A stretch of DNA of 64,000 nt from NCBI GenBank assembly GCA_012031265.1, contig JAAUTY010000016.1, positions 1 to 64,000 on the forward strand, written 5' to 3'. Positions within the stretch are counted from its first letter, which is position 1; each line of letters starts with the position of its first letter. Below the pieces are notes generated by a model. That model saw only the letters and a program-made list of their open reading frames with translations, had not been told where the DNA came from and did no database searches. Below are positions 51,594-59,370 of this stretch, piece after piece. The DNA is from Spirulinaceae cyanobacterium SM2_1_0. Lineage in GTDB: Bacteria; Cyanobacteriota; Cyanobacteriia; Cyanobacteriales; Spirulinaceae. The translations under genes were made by a program, and so were the position numbers.

Positions 51594-52145
51594 TCACCGC
51601 ATCATATCTTCCCACCAGCCTAGTAAAGGATGACTGTGGTGTGGGATGTAACGTCCTCTGGTTCGTATAGCGGTAAGCACAGATCGTAAAGTAACAGAAG
51701 AAATATTCTCTGCCTCTGACCAATGCCTGACTATTGCTAAAGTCGATAGAATTTGCAGGTTGGGCGCTTCCCGTTGAAAAAAGGAAATTGCTTTCTTATC
51801 ATCAGTAGCGATTACCCATTGTCGATGCACTGCAATTGCACAGGTTGCTGATTCACCATCATCTCCCAGCTCAAAAACATAGTTTACAAATGTTTCTTCC
51901 TCACTCTCTGAATTAAAATCCACAACTGCAAGTAACCCCTTTTTCATAGCTGCTTCAAACTGGTTTGTATCTTCGTCATTCTCGTCTGTCAGGCGTTGGA
52001 GAGTCAGCAGTTCTCTTTCTCTGACGACTTCAGTAACTACGACTTGAGCTGGTATAGACTGTATAATCTCGATCAAATATCCAGAAGCACAGAAGTTCAA
52101 GACACAGCAGGCATCAAAAACTACATGGGAGCGTTTGATTTCCAT
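51594..52145 (-). CDS. PIN-like nuclease-fold protein
   Basis: 183 aa. HVVFDACCVLNFCASGYLIE holds the first acidic residue, VVVTEVVRERELL the second, GDDGESATCAIAVHRQWVIATDDKKAI the G-E...A and DD of the PIN (DUF3368-like) pattern. Such proteins act as toxin RNases; here it is the last gene of an AT-rich operon and starts 17 bp after the XRE-ImmA/IrrE gene. That gene order fits an effector controlled by the upstream protease/regulator. Confidence 0.7.
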   Translation of the reverse strand: MEIKRSHVVFDACCVLNFCASGYLIEIIQSIPAQVVVTEVVRERELLTLQRLTDENDEDTNQFEAAMKKGLLAVVDFNSESEEETFVNYVFELGDDGESATCAIAVHRQWVIATDDKKAISFFQREAPNLQILSTLAIVRHWSEAENISSVTLRSVLTAIRTRGRYIPHHSHPLLGWWEDMMR

Positions 52146-52162
52146 AACTTATCTCCCAATCC

Positions 52163-53365
52163 TTACGCCTGACGCAAATCCAGATAGGCAGATTCTTCTT
52201 CCATCCCGCTGGAATGTTCGCGTAGTATTTCTGCTATGCGTCGCGCTTCTAACCGATCAACACCAAGGAAATCTGCAAAGCGTCCTTCGGTTATAAGCCC
52301 TTGCTCCAAAGCTTCGATAGCAAGATGTTGGTAGTGGATAGGGAAAATATCCGCCCGCTGGTCGATTTCTTCTAAACCCAGCTCTTTTTGTACTTGTCTA
52401 ACCTTTAACCCTCGATCTCGCAAACGATCTAAAGTTCCGGATGGAATAAGTTTTATATCTTCCAACCGATAACCAAGGGCTTCTATAGACACCCCATAAT
52501 AATGAGCAAGAGTAAATAAATTAGTTGGAGTAAACTTGCCATGAGTCTGATACATATCGTTGAAGCGTTTCATCAAGCCACTAGTTGGCATTAAAAAGTA
52601 GTTTGGAAAGGCGTCTCCCAAATGTTCACTCCTTGGTTTTCTTTGATGTTTTTTTTCGTAATCAGTGTAATCAATCACAGGCTTGCAACGGTGAGCCAGA
52701 AAGTGTAAATATTCATGTGCCAGTGACCAACGGCGTCGTTCTTCTGGATGATTAGAGTTGATGGCGACACATCCACCCAATTCCTCGCCATAGCTATAGA
52801 ATCCTGAATACTTGGGCGGCATTTCCAAATAGAAAATGCGAAGTCCCACACTTTGTTCTAGAATGTCTCGCAGAAGAGGAATGGGGCCATCACCAAGCCC
52901 AAGCCTCTGACGCTCTGCAATTGCGATGCTTTCCGCAGCCGCCTCTAAAGGCATATCTGTTACATCATATTCTTGAGGATAGTTTTGAGGTAAAGGAGCA
53001 TCAACAACATTCTCAAGCTCTAAATAATTGTGACAAAGTTCTTCCAATCGCTGAATACTTGAACTAATTAGTGCCTCTTCCTTAGTGTTCCGCTGGTAAG
53101 CCGCACGGAACTGAACCTCAAATGGCTCAGTGATAGGACTGGAACGAACGAAATCGCTGACAGCTCGTCCGTAAGCACGAGCTAATTTTATCAATTCATT
53201 TGGCTTTAGGCGCCGCTCTCCCTTTTCAATGGCAACAATGGTAGTGCGTGCAGCGTCAATAACCTTAGCCGCATCAGCTTGGGTCAGCCCGCTCTTCTTC
53301 CGCGCCTGTTGTAGGAGTGCTCCTAATTTTCGTAAATCAATCTTGTCGAGAATGTTGTTAGCCAT
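52163..53365 (-). CDS. XRE regulator fused to ImmA/IrrE metallopeptidase
   Basis: 400 aa. N-terminal HTH_XRE (LGALLQQARKKSGLTQADAA, TTIVAIEKGERRLKPNELIK), then an ImmA/IrrE zinc peptidase with the HEYLH motif (WSLAHEYLHFLAHRC) and a downstream region (FLMPTSGLMKRF, LAHYYGVSIEALGYRL) that is standard. Such fusions sense damage or a ligand and cleave a repressor or themselves to derepress neighbours, as in IrrE/ImmA systems. Located between the QueC-like and PIN-like genes; likely regulator of the island. Confidence 0.93.
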   Translation of the reverse strand: MANNILDKIDLRKLGALLQQARKKSGLTQADAAKVIDAARTTIVAIEKGERRLKPNELIKLARAYGRAVSDFVRSSPITEPFEVQFRAAYQRNTKEEALISSSIQRLEELCHNYLELENVVDAPLPQNYPQEYDVTDMPLEAAAESIAIAERQRLGLGDGPIPLLRDILEQSVGLRIFYLEMPPKYSGFYSYGEELGGCVAINSNHPEERRRWSLAHEYLHFLAHRCKPVIDYTDYEKKHQRKPRSEHLGDAFPNYFLMPTSGLMKRFNDMYQTHGKFTPTNLFTLAHYYGVSIEALGYRLEDIKLIPSGTLDRLRDRGLKVRQVQKELGLEEIDQRADIFPIHYQHLAIEALEQGLITEGRFADFLGVDRLEARRIAEILREHSSGMEEESAYLDLRQA

Positions 53366-53383
53366 AGCGTTTCCTTTCCAGCC

Positions 53384-54814
53384 TTACTGAATCGCCATCT
53401 GAAAATCTTGAGATGCTGGCTGATCGATCACTTGACTCAAGAAAGCTCTTGAAATCTGAGGCTCTACAGCATCCCACTCCAAAACATAGGTTTGATAGAG
53501 CCGAATTAAATTCTTCCTCATTTCAGGAGGTGTTAAGCTTTCCATCCCATGAGTTCTATCTACTATATCGTCAAGGTCAGGAAATCTTCGGGTTAATGAC
53601 TCCCATCGAGGGATGGCATCTTCTGAATAATTCAGCAATCTCTTGAGCGTAGAAACTTGCGCCAGCATATTTTGACGATGCAACCTGATGTCACCCACTG
53701 GACGAATACCATGAGGCACTATGTAATGAGTTCGGTCTTCTATCTGTGAGGCGGCAAGCGCCTGTTTTCTCAATATGCAAGATGAGCAGTAGCCACATTG
53801 AATAGGTTGCTTACGATGCGGACTATCGCATGATTTCGTCAACGGTGGTAAATCATGTCTTGCATCTTCCGACAATTGCTGACACATCTCAGCTTTAGTC
53901 CAAAAAAGGAAAGGATTCCGGACTCTAAATTCCTCTCCCATAATTTCTGACATAAGATCGCTAACCCGAAGCAGGGTTAAGGGATGAACTGACCGAGAGT
54001 GATCGAGACCAACAGCAGATTTTCGATAGGGGAGATTGATTGCACCAATACCGTTTTCGTATAAATAAAGTACTTTCTGACCCATTAAGTACGTACAAGC
54101 TGCGCCAAGCAATGTAAACACAACCCCTCTTGCACGGGGAATCTTGTTTTTGATATGCAAATTGCTCTCAGAAAAACGAATTGGAACTCTACAAAGATTT
54201 AATCGATTAGGAAAAGATGGCAAGAGTGCTTGAAAGATCTGTTTTTGACGTGCATAGGCATTGTCATTACTTCCTGTTCCAAATAGCATGAAAGATATTT
54301 GACGATTTTCCTTAAGGTGAGTGTAAAGCCCAGCTAAAGCATCAAGTCCACCACTCCAAAGTACTACTTCGTCTATATAGGGATCAGATGAAGCAAGTAG
54401 GGGTTGTTGCTCAACAAAACGTCCCAAGTCAACTCTTTTAGAAAATTCAAATATCCATCTGCTTCCGGTGGCCCATTCGAGAAAACTAGAGAGCTTATTT
54501 TGAAAAGAGCTTTGGTTTAAAATCTCTGGATGACGTATTGGAAGGACAATATGAATTTTGGTTTGCTGTTGCCTCAGACTTTGAGAAATCAAACGATCAG
54601 CTGCATGAATAGCAACAGCCAGATCAATAATATCAGCAACGATAGAGGGAAATTCTTTTTGTGTTCGATAACTAAATTCACTATCGTCTACAGCAATTCT
54701 CACATTACTTTCTGTGTTCCCAGAGTAGTCATGTAAGCATATATTTCCACCACTATTCATCACAGACTCGAAAAGCAAGGTGAAATCGGGAGTTTGCGTA
54801 CTTTGTCTTTCCAT
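53384..54814 (-). CDS. QueC-like PP-loop protein (QatC-type)
   Basis: 476 aa. The N-terminal third (FPSIVADIIDLAVAIHAADR, KIHIVLPIRHPEILNQ, LSSFLEWATGSRWIFEF) resembles the extension seen in defence-associated QueC homologues such as QatC. The PP-loop is VVLWSGGLDALAGLYTHL (SGGLD, with Ala replacing the usual Ser next). A QueC-like zinc site follows: CDSPHRKQPIQCGYCSSCILRKQAL. QueC makes 7-cyano-7-deazaguanine; the defence homologues are thought to use related chemistry. No QatA ATPase or QatD TatD nuclease is adjacent. AT-rich. Confidence 0.82.
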   Translation of the reverse strand: MERQSTQTPDFTLLFESVMNSGGNICLHDYSGNTESNVRIAVDDSEFSYRTQKEFPSIVADIIDLAVAIHAADRLISQSLRQQQTKIHIVLPIRHPEILNQSSFQNKLSSFLEWATGSRWIFEFSKRVDLGRFVEQQPLLASSDPYIDEVVLWSGGLDALAGLYTHLKENRQISFMLFGTGSNDNAYARQKQIFQALLPSFPNRLNLCRVPIRFSESNLHIKNKIPRARGVVFTLLGAACTYLMGQKVLYLYENGIGAINLPYRKSAVGLDHSRSVHPLTLLRVSDLMSEIMGEEFRVRNPFLFWTKAEMCQQLSEDARHDLPPLTKSCDSPHRKQPIQCGYCSSCILRKQALAASQIEDRTHYIVPHGIRPVGDIRLHRQNMLAQVSTLKRLLNYSEDAIPRWESLTRRFPDLDDIVDRTHGMESLTPPEMRKNLIRLYQTYVLEWDAVEPQISRAFLSQVIDQPASQDFQMAIQ

Positions 54815-54819
54815 TTTAC

Positions 54820-55452
54820 TTAACCTGCTAAAAGATCCTCATCTAAATCGATTGCTTTTCGAGAAGAACTTCGAGGCATGGATAACCTGGCTACACTTTG
54901 ATTTCTGATAGCAGTTTGGGTGAATTTTCGAATCCCAGAATCTATACTTGGCTTCATTGCCTCAATTCGCTTGTCAAGTATTTCTTGAGCAACGCCTGCA
55001 TGGTGTTCTGAAGTCAATGGAATACGTTCTTTAAACTCTGATTCATAAACTTCATGAGCATACCGTCTCCAAATAGATTCTGAAGTATGGGTAATGTCTA
55101 CCTCTCGTCCATATCTAAGGTCGTTGAGGTAACTCTTGCCTGCGCTCAACATCAGATCTTTGACATAGCGCGATCCATCTGACTGTTGAACTAGGTTGTC
55201 GAATTCCACACTAAGTTTGGCGAAGTCACTTTCCCTGGCTTCTTCAAGATTGCTAATTATTTGTGCAATACTAGCCGCCATTTGTTGAGATAGTGTAATA
55301 GAGAGATCGCCTTTATCTTTCAGGTCTTTCTTGAGTGCTTCTAGTAAAGCTCTGGCACAGTCGTCGCTGGTGGCAACCCCTTCGCAAAGCCACTTGTACG
55401 GTTCTTGATAAAGCCGTCTCAATCTGCTGTGGACAATATCTCCATCGGGCAT
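54820..55452 (-). CDS. unknown protein, first gene of the QueC-like island
   Basis: 210 aa. ATG 55452 has a strong Shine-Dalgarno (GGAGG five bases before). Predicted all-helical and charged: RLRRLYQEPYKWLCEGVATS, ARALLEALKKDLKDKGDLSI, AASIAQIISNLEEARESDFA, SIWRRYAHEVYESEFKERIP. No motif that I recognise. Only 5 bp separate it from the QueC-like gene, so the two are co-translated and probably partners. Confidence 0.7.
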   Translation of the reverse strand: MPDGDIVHSRLRRLYQEPYKWLCEGVATSDDCARALLEALKKDLKDKGDLSITLSQQMAASIAQIISNLEEARESDFAKLSVEFDNLVQQSDGSRYVKDLMLSAGKSYLNDLRYGREVDITHTSESIWRRYAHEVYESEFKERIPLTSEHHAGVAQEILDKRIEAMKPSIDSGIRKFTQTAIRNQSVARLSMPRSSSRKAIDLDEDLLAG

Positions 55453-55505
55453 GAAAACCTCCGCCTCTTGGAGTTCTTTAATACTCCAAAGCTAACTCAC
55501 GCACC

Positions 55506-55516
55506 TGACATTGTCA
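55506..55516. promoter_or_regulatory. palindrome TGACATTGTCA overlapping the -35 of the island promoter
   Basis: On the minus strand TTGACA is followed after 17 bases by TAGCTT, about 30 bases before the GGAGG of the first island gene. TGACA-A-TGTCA overlaps the -35 box and is a natural operator candidate for the XRE-ImmA/IrrE protein. Confidence 0.45.
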
Positions 55517-55840
55517 ACTATTTATTGAATTTTTTTCTGAAAATGTCAGCTCAGGGTTTTGACGGATGCCCAAATGGCTTGATTGATGCAGCAGTCAGCC
55601 ATGATCTCTGAAAAGATTCAGGCACTAAAACCCAGGAACAGCCAGGCTTTCAGCCCCAATCAATTTTTAGCGATCAATCCAGATTGCCATAGATAATGCG
55701 ACGGAGAGAATAATCTTCGTCAAGATGAAGCTGTGGCTCCAGTGTCAGGTGGGCAGTATGAAAATTCGCTTGGAGCGTGCTGCCGGAAAGATCCTGGTGC
55801 TGAGTTCCAAGTTACTTGTGGCTGCTCAAGCGCACCGTTC
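55517..55840. other. gap between the island and the collapsed kinase
   Basis: About 320 bp without a recognisable gene; AT-rich up to about 55.7 kb, then composition returns to that of the chromosome. Confidence 0.4.
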
Positions 55841-56494
55841 TCAAGTGCTGGTCGCGGCCGTCGCGGCGGGGAGTGGCAGGCAGACTGTGAAGCAGGTGCG
55901 CCCCGGTTGCGAATCAACGCTCACAGTTCCCTGGTGGCGATTGCGAATGATGCGGCTGACGGCATCGAGGTCCAGACCGGAGCCTTCGCCCATCGCTTTG
56001 GTGGTGAAAAATGGCTCGAAGATGCGCGACTGGATCGACGCGGGAATGCCGCTGCCAGAGTCAATAATTTCCACCCGCAGGTGGTCATGGTCGCGGGCGA
56101 TCGCCACTGTCAGCGTCCCTTTGCCGTCCATCGCCGCGATCGCATTGTCAATCAGATTCGTCCACACCTGATTCAACTCACTGCCATAGGCGCAAACCTG
56201 CGGCAGCTCCGGCTCATACTGGCGGTGAACGGTAATCCCGGACTTGAGCTTGTAGGCGAGGAGTTTGAGGGTATCTTCCAGCCCGTCGCGAACATCTACA
56301 ACCTGCTGCGCGCCGCGATCGAGATGCGAGTAGGACTTCATCATGAAGAAACCGTTGGGGTTGCTGCCTTCGGCCAGCAGGGTGGTGCCTGCCGGGACGG
56401 TGAGTTCGTGGGCGCGATCGCAAACCCACTGCAATTGCGACGGCGGCAATTGTTGAAACGGCTCCAGCGCCAGCAACTCATCCACACACAACAT
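55841..56494 (-). pseudogene. cNMP-binding/histidine-kinase protein with large internal deletion
   Basis: The frame is open for 217 codons but joins two ends of a longer protein. The start is the beginning of a cyclic-nucleotide-binding domain (LLALEPFQQLPPSQLQWVCD, VPAGTTLLAEGSNPNGFF). From about residue 52 it is the C-terminal part of a histidine kinase (KSYSHLDRGAQQVVDVRDGL, VWTNLIDNAIAAM, DSGSGIP, FTTKAMGEGSGLDLDAVSRI). The rest of the cNMP domain and the H-box region are absent. Preceded by GAGGAGGG and a matching truncated partner gene. Confidence 0.75.
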
Positions 56495-56506
56495 CAGCGG
56501 CCCTCC

Positions 56507-56697
56507 TCAGAGATTGCTGAGATAGCGATGGACAAACTGAACGCAGATGCTGCCCTCGCCGACCCCCGCCGCCACGCGCTTGATCGATCGGTGCGGAGGA
56601 TGCGATAGCGCTCGCCATACTGCCGTCGCAGGTCACGAGCGATCGCCTGCAAGACTTCTGGATCGTCGTCAACAGTGAGGATTACAGGTTTATTCAC
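56507..56697 (-). pseudogene. fused response regulator/thioredoxin reductase reduced to its two ends
   Basis: Starts as a receiver domain (MNKPVILTVDDDPEVLQAIA, RDLRRQYGERYRIL). Then, with a change of frame at about 56595, it continues as the extreme C-terminus of a thioredoxin-reductase domain (SIKRVAAGVGEGSICVQFVH, RYLSNL, stop 56507). About 480-500 codons between are missing. In bacteria this RR/TrxR gene is the usual partner of the cNMP-kinase gene next door, which is collapsed the same way. Confidence 0.75.
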
Positions 56698-56736
56698 AGT
56701 CCAAAGACACTCGCGAAAATGAAGCGTCGGGCATGG

Positions 56737-56970
56737 CTAGAGCGCAGGCATCCCCGCCAAGACGTAATGCAGGAAGGCGTAGGTGCTTCTGGCTGGCAGC
56801 CGCAGGGATTCGCCCTGATACTCGATGATGTGCTCGCCCCGCACCTCGCCGCAGGCGGTGCAAGTCAGGGCGGCGCGGCTCAAGGCATCAACACTGAGGG
56901 TTAGAATTTGCCGTTCGAGCCAGGGATCGAAGTTTGGGAAGGCGGGCGGCATGGCGGAATTTGCAGTCAT
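56737..56970 (-). CDS. hypothetical small protein
   Basis: 77 aa. PNFDPWLERQILTLSVDALS, ALTCTACGEVRGEHIIEYQG, ESLRLPARSTYAFLHYVLAG. One CXXC (CTAC) but no second pair, so zinc binding is uncertain. 39 bp upstream of the collapsed RR gene on the same strand. Not recognised. Confidence 0.45.
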   Translation of the reverse strand: MTANSAMPPAFPNFDPWLERQILTLSVDALSRAALTCTACGEVRGEHIIEYQGESLRLPARSTYAFLHYVLAGMPAL

Positions 56971-56990
56971 TGGCGGGAGCGATCGCGCGG

Positions 56991-57095
56991 CTAGTACCGC
57001 TACGCGGAATTTTGAGTTTTGAGTTTTGAGTGATGAGTGCAGACAATACGGGCATCCTGCGGATCTTGAATGGGCATCTCATTTCCGCCGCCTTG
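56991..57095 (+). repeat. 111-bp CTAG element, copy E (right end lost)
   Basis: Left CTAGTACCGCTACGCGG intact; the right end stops at CCGCCGCCTTG and continues as GGCTGGGG instead of TACTAG. A second copy follows 25 bp later in the same orientation. Confidence 0.8.
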
Positions 57096-57119
57096 GGCTG
57101 GGGTGCTGACAAGCGCTAG

Positions 57120-57230
57120 CTAGTACCGCTACGCGGAATTTTGAGTTCTGGGTTTTGAGTTTTGAGTGCCTGCAAGACGGGAATCCTGGGAATTTTGAAT
57201 AGGCATCTCATTTCCGCCCTCTTGTACTAG
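57120..57230 (+). repeat. 111-bp CTAG element, copy F (diverged)
   Basis: Both CTAG ends present, but the central part differs (GTGCCTGCAAGACGGGAATC, CTGGGAATTTTGAATAGGC). This makes it a separate subfamily, nearer to the hypF copy. Confidence 0.85.
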
Positions 57231-57450
57231 GGTGCTCGCGTCCAGATGCGGAGTGCAAACGAGCACATTGTAATCGCAATCGCCCCAATATGACTGACGA
57301 TGCGACGTGGCGCGACGCGGTGTCTCCAATCCTGACTAGTGTTGGCTATTTCCGAAAACCCGGCACGCCCCAGAGGCTCTCAAAATACCGTATGCTATTG
57401 GGCAGATTTGCTTAGACGGCATCGTAGCGCCGACCGCTCAATCTGCCGCC
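57231..57450. other. gap upstream of the TIR-AAA gene
   Basis: 220 bp without a gene; holds the promoter region of the following gene. Confidence 0.35.
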
Positions 57451-59370
57451 ATGCCCATAGCAGGCGACATGAGAGACACCATCAGGGCTTCTGAACTCGG
57501 ACTCGGCATCGTCGAGATTGCTAGACGAAAGAAAGGCTGGACGCGCACCAGTACTCCCCTCTGGTGGGATCTCGCCCGGACGTCGCGCGCCACGCTGCGG
57601 CGTTTTTGGCGCGGCATCGCCATCCAGCGGGACGCCTTTGAGGAGATTTGTCGCGTCGTCGGCATCCGCGACTGGCAGTTGATCGCGGACGATTGGCTGT
57701 GGCCGGAAAATTTGACCCTGAATCTCGAGGCGCTCTACTGGTGGGCGGTGGGGCAACATGAAACCGCCACGCGGCTCGCCCCCGGACTGATTGAAGAGCT
57801 GCGCCGACTGGCAAAACCGCTGCCCGCAACGACTCAACGCCTGACGGTACTCTACTGCACCGATCCAGAGAGCGAGGCATTGGCGCGCCACTTGCAACTG
57901 GGCTTGCTCGCCGCTGGCTATACTCTGTCGCTGGCGGGCGATCGCCAGCGACAGGGATTGACCTGGGTACAGCGGCTGTCTGAGGAATTCGTGCACTGCG
58001 AAGGCCTACTCCTGCTCCTGTCCAATGTGGCGGCTCGCAGCGAGTGGCTGACCGATGCGGTGCGGCAGGCGCGCGAACAACAGGTCAACCACGAGGGTAA
58101 GCCTTGTTTGCTGCCGATTCGGGTCGGTTCCGGGGCTGTTCGCTTGAACTACGACCTTCAGGGTTATCTCATTGACCGACCGGTTTGGAGTTGGCAGGAC
58201 GAACGCGATACACCGGGCTTGCTGCAACGCCTCTGCCAACAATTGCAGTCCGATCAACGGGCGATCGCTCCGCCTTCGTTCTCCGAGCCGCTCGCCCCGT
58301 TGCTGCCCGACAGCCAGCCCTCGCCCAGTGCCGAGCCAGAGTTGCAACTCGAACATCCCGGCGGTCAGGTCAACCTCGACTCGCGCTTCTACATTCCGCG
58401 GCCACCGAGCGAGGATGAGGCGATCGCCGCCATCTTGCAACCCGGCGCGCTGATCCGCATCAAAGCCCCGCGCCAGATGGGCAAAACCTCACTGATGGCA
58501 CGCATTTTGCAGCGCGGTCGCCAGGCCGATTACAACACGGTGCCACTCAGCTTCCAGCTTGCCGATAGCCCCGTATTCAGTGACCTCGAGCGTCTGTTGC
58601 AATGGTTCTGTGCCAGTGTCGGGCGGCGCTTGGGGTTGTCGCAGCGTCCCCGCGAGACTTGGGATGCGATGTACAGCAGCAAGGAAAACTGCACCATCTA
58701 CTTCGAGGATCATGTCTTGCCCAACCTGACGCAGCCTTTGGTTCTGGGGCTAGACGAGGTGGATCGGGTCTTTCAGCACCCGGCGATCGCCGCTGACTTT
58801 TTCAGCCTGCTGCGTGCCTGGTATGATGCCGGTCGCGATGGCGATCGCCCCCACTGGCAACACCTCCGCTTGGTCGTCGTCCACTCCACCGAAGTCTACG
58901 TGCCGCTAGCGCTGAACCGCTCCCCTTTCAATGTCGGGCTGCCGGTCGTGTTGCCGGAGCTGACTGGCCCACAAGTGCAACAGTTGGCCGCGTTGCATGG
59001 GTTGTCCGGGACGGCGGCGGATTGCGAGGCACTGATGGCGATGGTCGGCGGTCATCCTTATCTGATTCGTCTCGCCCTCTACCACGTCGCGCGGGGCTAC
59101 CAGACGCTGCCGGCACTCTTGACCACGGCCCCGACAGAGGCCGGCATCTATGGCGATCACCTCCGCCGTCACCTCTGGCAACTGGAGCAGCATCCTGAGT
59201 TGGCCGAAGCGATGGAGGATGTTGCCGTTACCGAGACGCCGGTGCGTTTGGAGACGGCGATCGCTTTCAAGCTGCACAGCATGGGCCTGGTTCACTGGGC
59301 AGGCAGCCATGTCGTGCCCCGCTGCGAGTTGTATCGTCGCTATTTTCAGGATCGCTTCGGGGCGTCCTAG
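57451..59370 (+). CDS. TIR-like / AAA STAND-type conflict protein
   Basis: 639 aa. An alternative start is ATG 57469 (MRDTIRASE), which fits relatives better. An N-terminal HTH-like module (about 7-85: GLGIVEIARRKKGWTRTSTP, ARTSRATLRRFWRGIAIQRD, FEEICRVVGIRDWQLIADD) is common to cyanobacterial effector-associated proteins. A TIR-fold domain follows (about 128-235: RLTVLYCTDPESEALARHLQ, FVHCEGLLLLLSNVAARSEW). Then an AAA_35-type P-loop domain (GALIRIKAPRQMGKTSLMAR; Walker B PLVLGLDEVDRVF; VVVHSTEVYVPL; MVGGHPYLIRLALYHVARG). The usual catalytic Glu three residues after the SEW Trp is Asp, so NADase activity is doubtful. Confidence 0.82.
   Translation: MPIAGDMRDTIRASELGLGIVEIARRKKGWTRTSTPLWWDLARTSRATLRRFWRGIAIQRDAFEEICRVVGIRDWQLIADDWLWPENLTLNLEALYWWAVGQHETATRLAPGLIEELRRLAKPLPATTQRLTVLYCTDPESEALARHLQLGLLAAGYTLSLAGDRQRQGLTWVQRLSEEFVHCEGLLLLLSNVAARSEWLTDAVRQAREQQVNHEGKPCLLPIRVGSGAVRLNYDLQGYLIDRPVWSWQDERDTPGLLQRLCQQLQSDQRAIAPPSFSEPLAPLLPDSQPSPSAEPELQLEHPGGQVNLDSRFYIPRPPSEDEAIAAILQPGALIRIKAPRQMGKTSLMARILQRGRQADYNTVPLSFQLADSPVFSDLERLLQWFCASVGRRLGLSQRPRETWDAMYSSKENCTIYFEDHVLPNLTQPLVLGLDEVDRVFQHPAIAADFFSLLRAWYDAGRDGDRPHWQHLRLVVVHSTEVYVPLALNRSPFNVGLPVVLPELTGPQVQQLAALHGLSGTAADCEALMAMVGGHPYLIRLALYHVARGYQTLPALLTTAPTEAGIYGDHLRRHLWQLEQHPELAEAMEDVAVTETPVRLETAIAFKLHSMGLVHWAGSHVVPRCELYRRYFQDRFGAS

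Follow-up and report, generated by a model that had tools for sequence, protein, structure and literature searches.

Remnants of a response-regulator/thioredoxin-reductase-like gene and its neighbouring cNMP-binding histidine kinase gene in a Spirulinaceae cyanobacterium: a probable decaying operon with two internal deletions

Two neighbouring signalling-gene remnants on the minus strand of a cyanobacterial window (the whole 64,000-nt stretch of DNA analysed here, from Spirulinaceae cyanobacterium SM2_1_0) are very likely the ordinary pseudogenes of a decaying former operon rather than a new system. The locus, positions 55841–56697, exactly spans what is left of a fused response-regulator/thioredoxin-reductase-like gene (56507–56697) and of a cNMP-binding histidine kinase gene (55841–56494), both of which are full length and adjacent in the relative G008 (548 and 466 aa). 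In tblastn searches, the G008 reductase matched the locus through residues 1–41 (71%) and 521–548 (89%), which lie side by side, and the G008 kinase matched it through residues 1–52 and 306–463, again side by side. As judged by alignment, this likeness to the intact G008 proteins far exceeds chance, with E-values of 2.5e-71 for the kinase part and of 7.1e-12 and 2.7e-9 for the reductase ends.

The intact pair is also found in G097, a genome in one 5.1 Mb contig, where genes of 556 and 474 aa stand 9 nt apart and are 82% (first gene) and 77% (kinase) identical to the G008 copies; their Pfam domains are Response_reg and Pyr_redox_2 in the first protein and cNMP_binding and HATPase_c in the second. 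In G061, a reductase-like gene and the kinase are likewise together, in the order seen in G097 and G008. These intact pairs bear out the gene identities given in the original prediction, together with its reading of two separate central deletions in adjacent genes, and the comparison with an intact operon that it had proposed as a check placed the deletion end points as listed in Table 1. Among 13 relatives' loci examined, a reductase-gene match was present at eight, one of them damaged (L164) and one on the other strand and non-adjacent (L038). Since no reductase match was seen at the remaining loci (L040, L162, L163, L165 and L166, of which L162 ends at a contig edge), the kinase can also stand without a nearby reductase. 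For the cyanobacterial fusion we assume the name "response regulator/thioredoxin-disulfide-reductase-like protein". The passages of PMC9025218 and PMC13421787 consulted hold no description of it, from which we do not conclude that the fusion is new to the literature.

Table 1. Positions of the features of the remnant locus and of the adjacent gene cassette in the window
Feature	Position	Strand	Basis or remark
N-terminal 37 codons of the response-regulator/thioredoxin-reductase-like gene, GTG start	56587..56697	-	tblastn and comparison with relatives
C-terminal 25 codons and stop of the reductase-like gene, in a different frame	56507..56586	-	~1480 nt gone at 56586/56587
GGAGG, Shine-Dalgarno-like, 5' of the kinase start	56502..56506	-	direct reading of the sequence; putative role
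N-terminal 51 codons of the cNMP-binding histidine kinase (only the start of the cNMP domain)	56342..56494	-	
C-terminal 166 codons and stop of the kinase, complete HATPase domain	55841..56341	-	~762 nt gone at 56341/56342
Kinase codon 175: Asp	55970..55972	-	Gly in all 29 compared rows (GxGLGL)
Cassette genes	51594-55452	-	unknown, 210 aa; QatC-like, 476 aa; HTH/M78, 400 aa; unknown, 183 aa

Measured against G097, the first deletion comprises ~1480 nt, a length that leaves a remainder of 1 on division by three and is thus frameshifting, and takes the flavoprotein domain together with the bulk of the receiver. Past the junction, the N-terminal reductase frame continues through 30 out-of-frame codons to a TGA stop at 56494–56496, which overlaps the kinase ATG. 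No Response_reg match was obtained for the reductase remnant ORF in Pfam at E up to 0.1, a domain which the G097 protein does have; with just 37 N-terminal residues kept, a receiver with its phospho-accepting Asp is absent, and so is the FAD/NADPH Pyr_redox_2 domain, residues ~38–531 on the G097 scale being missing. Frameshifted and deprived of most of its receiver and of its flavoprotein domain, the first gene is, by its sequence, dead. The original prediction had rightly seen both of its ends as kept, with about 35 and about 26 codons, counts that are corrected here.

The second deletion, of 762 nt on the same scale, is in frame; the histidine region and the greater part of the cNMP domain are lost with it. 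The 51-codon part is joined to the 166-codon part in an open frame of 217 codons, as had been anticipated, and the kinase keeps its start and its ATPase end; more than a terminus has been retained, however, as HATPase_c is complete (Pfam PF02518, E 4.6e-24). No cNMP_binding match was found in this remnant in Pfam at E up to 0.1, versus a match at residues 31–115 of the G097 protein, and the AHELNNP region, presumably the phospho-accepting His region of the kinase, lies within the deleted part in the alignment with relatives. The second gene may still use its own ribosome site to yield a 217-aa HATPase-only protein, which can hardly signal as a kinase because both the sensor domain and the phospho-accepting histidine are gone. 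A consensus scan of 55500–57500 detected no terminator-like site, and on the minus strand of the same interval no promoter-like site matching the sigma-70 consensus, the one consensus used. Directly upstream of the remnants, an ORF of 77 aa with a CxxC motif (56737–56970, minus strand) was found only in its own genome among 39 genomes searched.

If G097 and G008 are taken to represent the vanished parent sequence, the two ends of each deletion would have had 0 to ~3 nt in common. The retention of both ends in both genes had been described as unusual, a view that weakens on simulation: when two such deletions are placed at random and without overlap in a 3.1-kb operon, each comes to lie within a different gene in 10.3% of 200,000 trials, so that the layout is weak evidence for anything beyond two deletions. 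HIP1 (GCGATCGC) was considered as a deletion site and discarded; the first junction does have a CGATCG core, at 56585, yet the window holds 156 CGATCG and 123 GCGATCGC, and its position there is no evidence. The course that we propose would have started from an intact fusion of a receiver with a thioredoxin-reductase-like flavoprotein, followed directly by the cNMP-binding histidine kinase. The function of the pair would have been lost in this lineage, and the two internal deletions would have arisen at junctions with little or no homology, in an order and by a mechanism that are presumed; the deletions were presumably neutral, and the remnants would be devoid of function.

Counting against decay are the 217-codon open, in-frame kinase remnant, the ribosome-site-like sequence before it and the small number of altered ATPase residues, features which could also belong to a truncated kinase retained as a useful HATPase-only protein, for example one binding or blocking partners of paralogous kinases. 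In the ATPase part, the window departs from 2 of 53 invariant residues (T132I and G175D), and in the N-terminal part from 0 of 4; intact rows subjected to the same test show 0 to 3 changes among 53–56. This test compared 29 rows representing 28 genes (L137 and L166 are one G078 gene), left from 32 rows after removal of L148 and L149, the N-termini of which were unmatched, and of a 31% second match in L160. Such conservation is expected under either recent deletion or continued constraint. Because just 2 of the 53 ATPase residues are altered, the loss looks recent; recent loss fits the conservation best, and weak constraint on the remnant is possible. Retention of a useful product is nevertheless unlikely, since a Gly universal in the 29 rows, in the GxGLGL motif that we take to be the G2 box of the ATPase, is Asp in the window, the phosphotransfer region has been lost and the partner gene is frameshifted. 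Moreover, when the window, G097 and G008 are compared over 158 codons, the window carries the most private residue changes (22, versus 9 in G097 and 14 in G008) and the highest dN (0.19 and 0.20 versus 0.15); synonymous sites are saturated, and no dN/dS ratio is given.

A retained short form would also gain from the existence of another HATPase-only remnant, which lies in G239 (L163, 4416–4856, minus strand) on a 7-Mb contig; its match, however, begins at residue 316 versus 306 in the window, and no common short form is indicated. Across the order, kinase matches at E up to 1e-50 occur in 66 of 388 genomes, with the best seven candidates per genome scored. Full length is the norm, as in 94 of the 100 matches listed (hand count) the open frame reaches 425 aa or more; a stop within the matched stretch is listed for 9 of these 94, three of which (L138, L152 and L157) are stop-free over the stretch aligned for the residue test. 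The six shorter ones are the window itself, G239, G243:C68 and G242:C186, both cut by contig ends, G243:C152, in which the first 117 kinase residues are unmatched beside a full reductase match, and G224 (L164, 3652–5845, plus strand), with its damaged reductase gene and a 227-base N run inside the kinase that leaves the middle not judgeable. G239, G224 and G243:C152 thus look reduced as well, L163 and L164 with end points that differ from those in the window. A wider contig collection gave at least 80 loci, among the matches listed at most 57% identical and mostly from other phyla; records close to this organism may be missing from that collection.

Decay of the operon presupposes that the deletions are real, and the original prediction had suspected an assembly collapse. 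It is very unlikely that faulty assembly or a chimeric clone produced the short genes while the organism carries the full ones. The assembly is a draft of 149 contigs, and none of the other genomes in the samples searched, the 388-genome sample among them, showed these junctions, so that the deletions may be confined to this one assembly. Against this, searches of the assembly, whose listed completeness is 99.98%, did not recover the missing middles, the locus sits within a 71-kb contig, and shortened copies are known from other genomes too (G239, G224). Searched against the genome itself at E up to 1e-5, the G008 reductase matched nothing besides the two ends of the remnant and four stretches of receiver type (at most 43%), and the G008 kinase, at E up to 1e-15, had 26 matches besides the remnant, none above 53%; no second copy of the locus DNA was detected there, only pieces of at most 104 nt at 70–80%. 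The same genome has 26 matches in a Pyr_redox_2 search and 78 matches to the truncated kinase, the remnant itself counted. Repeat-driven collapse is unlikely because, judging from relatives, the end-point sequences share at most ~3 nt, which would leave no repeat to collapse; a repeat scan of 54800–57600 is blind on this point, as a single copy would remain. Outside the locus, at 56990–57236, two direct repeats of 118 nt, 85% alike and 129 nt apart from start to start, are rich in GAATTTTGAGTTTTGAG-like runs. A role for the truncated kinase as a translated and retained HATPase-only decoy that interferes with paralogous histidine kinases is highly improbable.

Directly downstream of the remnants, a block of 39–45% G+C between stretches of 52–63% holds a row of four genes on the minus strand (Table 1), a cassette which is more interesting than the remnants themselves. 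The QatC-like protein, which resembles a defence protein, matches NCBIfam NF041925 at E 2e-45, below the cut-off, and the HTH/M78-protease protein matches PADLOC RmrA at E 5.3e-24. The four genes occur together in identical order, at 31–81% identity, in all six genomes examined, which were drawn from the 13 others with a match to the QatC-like (third) gene among 195 searched. The cassette is conserved, defence-like and probably mobile, and the low G+C suggests that the block is an acquired island; such an island would mark a spot tolerant of insertions and deletions, in keeping with a decaying locus. On the other side of the remnants, a 639-aa protein (57451–59370, plus strand) has an AAA_35 domain (E 6.3e-137); its TIR_2 match is weak and falls just under the cut-off.

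The locus is best marked as pseudogenes, lest the 217-aa ORF count as a working kinase, and beyond annotation it is of little importance. It does furnish a further case of the repeated reduction of the gene family in cyanobacteria. Set beside the fused response regulator/thioredoxin-reductase-like and cNMP-kinase pair of G097, G008 and G061, the window shares the gene order and the terminal sequences; it differs in that both middles are gone, the first gene is frameshifted and the kinase is without sensor domain or histidine region. The remnants resemble ordinary bacterial internal-deletion pseudogenes in their large low-homology deletions, frameshift and loss of catalytic parts, the only notable difference being that both ends of both genes are kept, an outcome with a frequency of ~10% under random placement.
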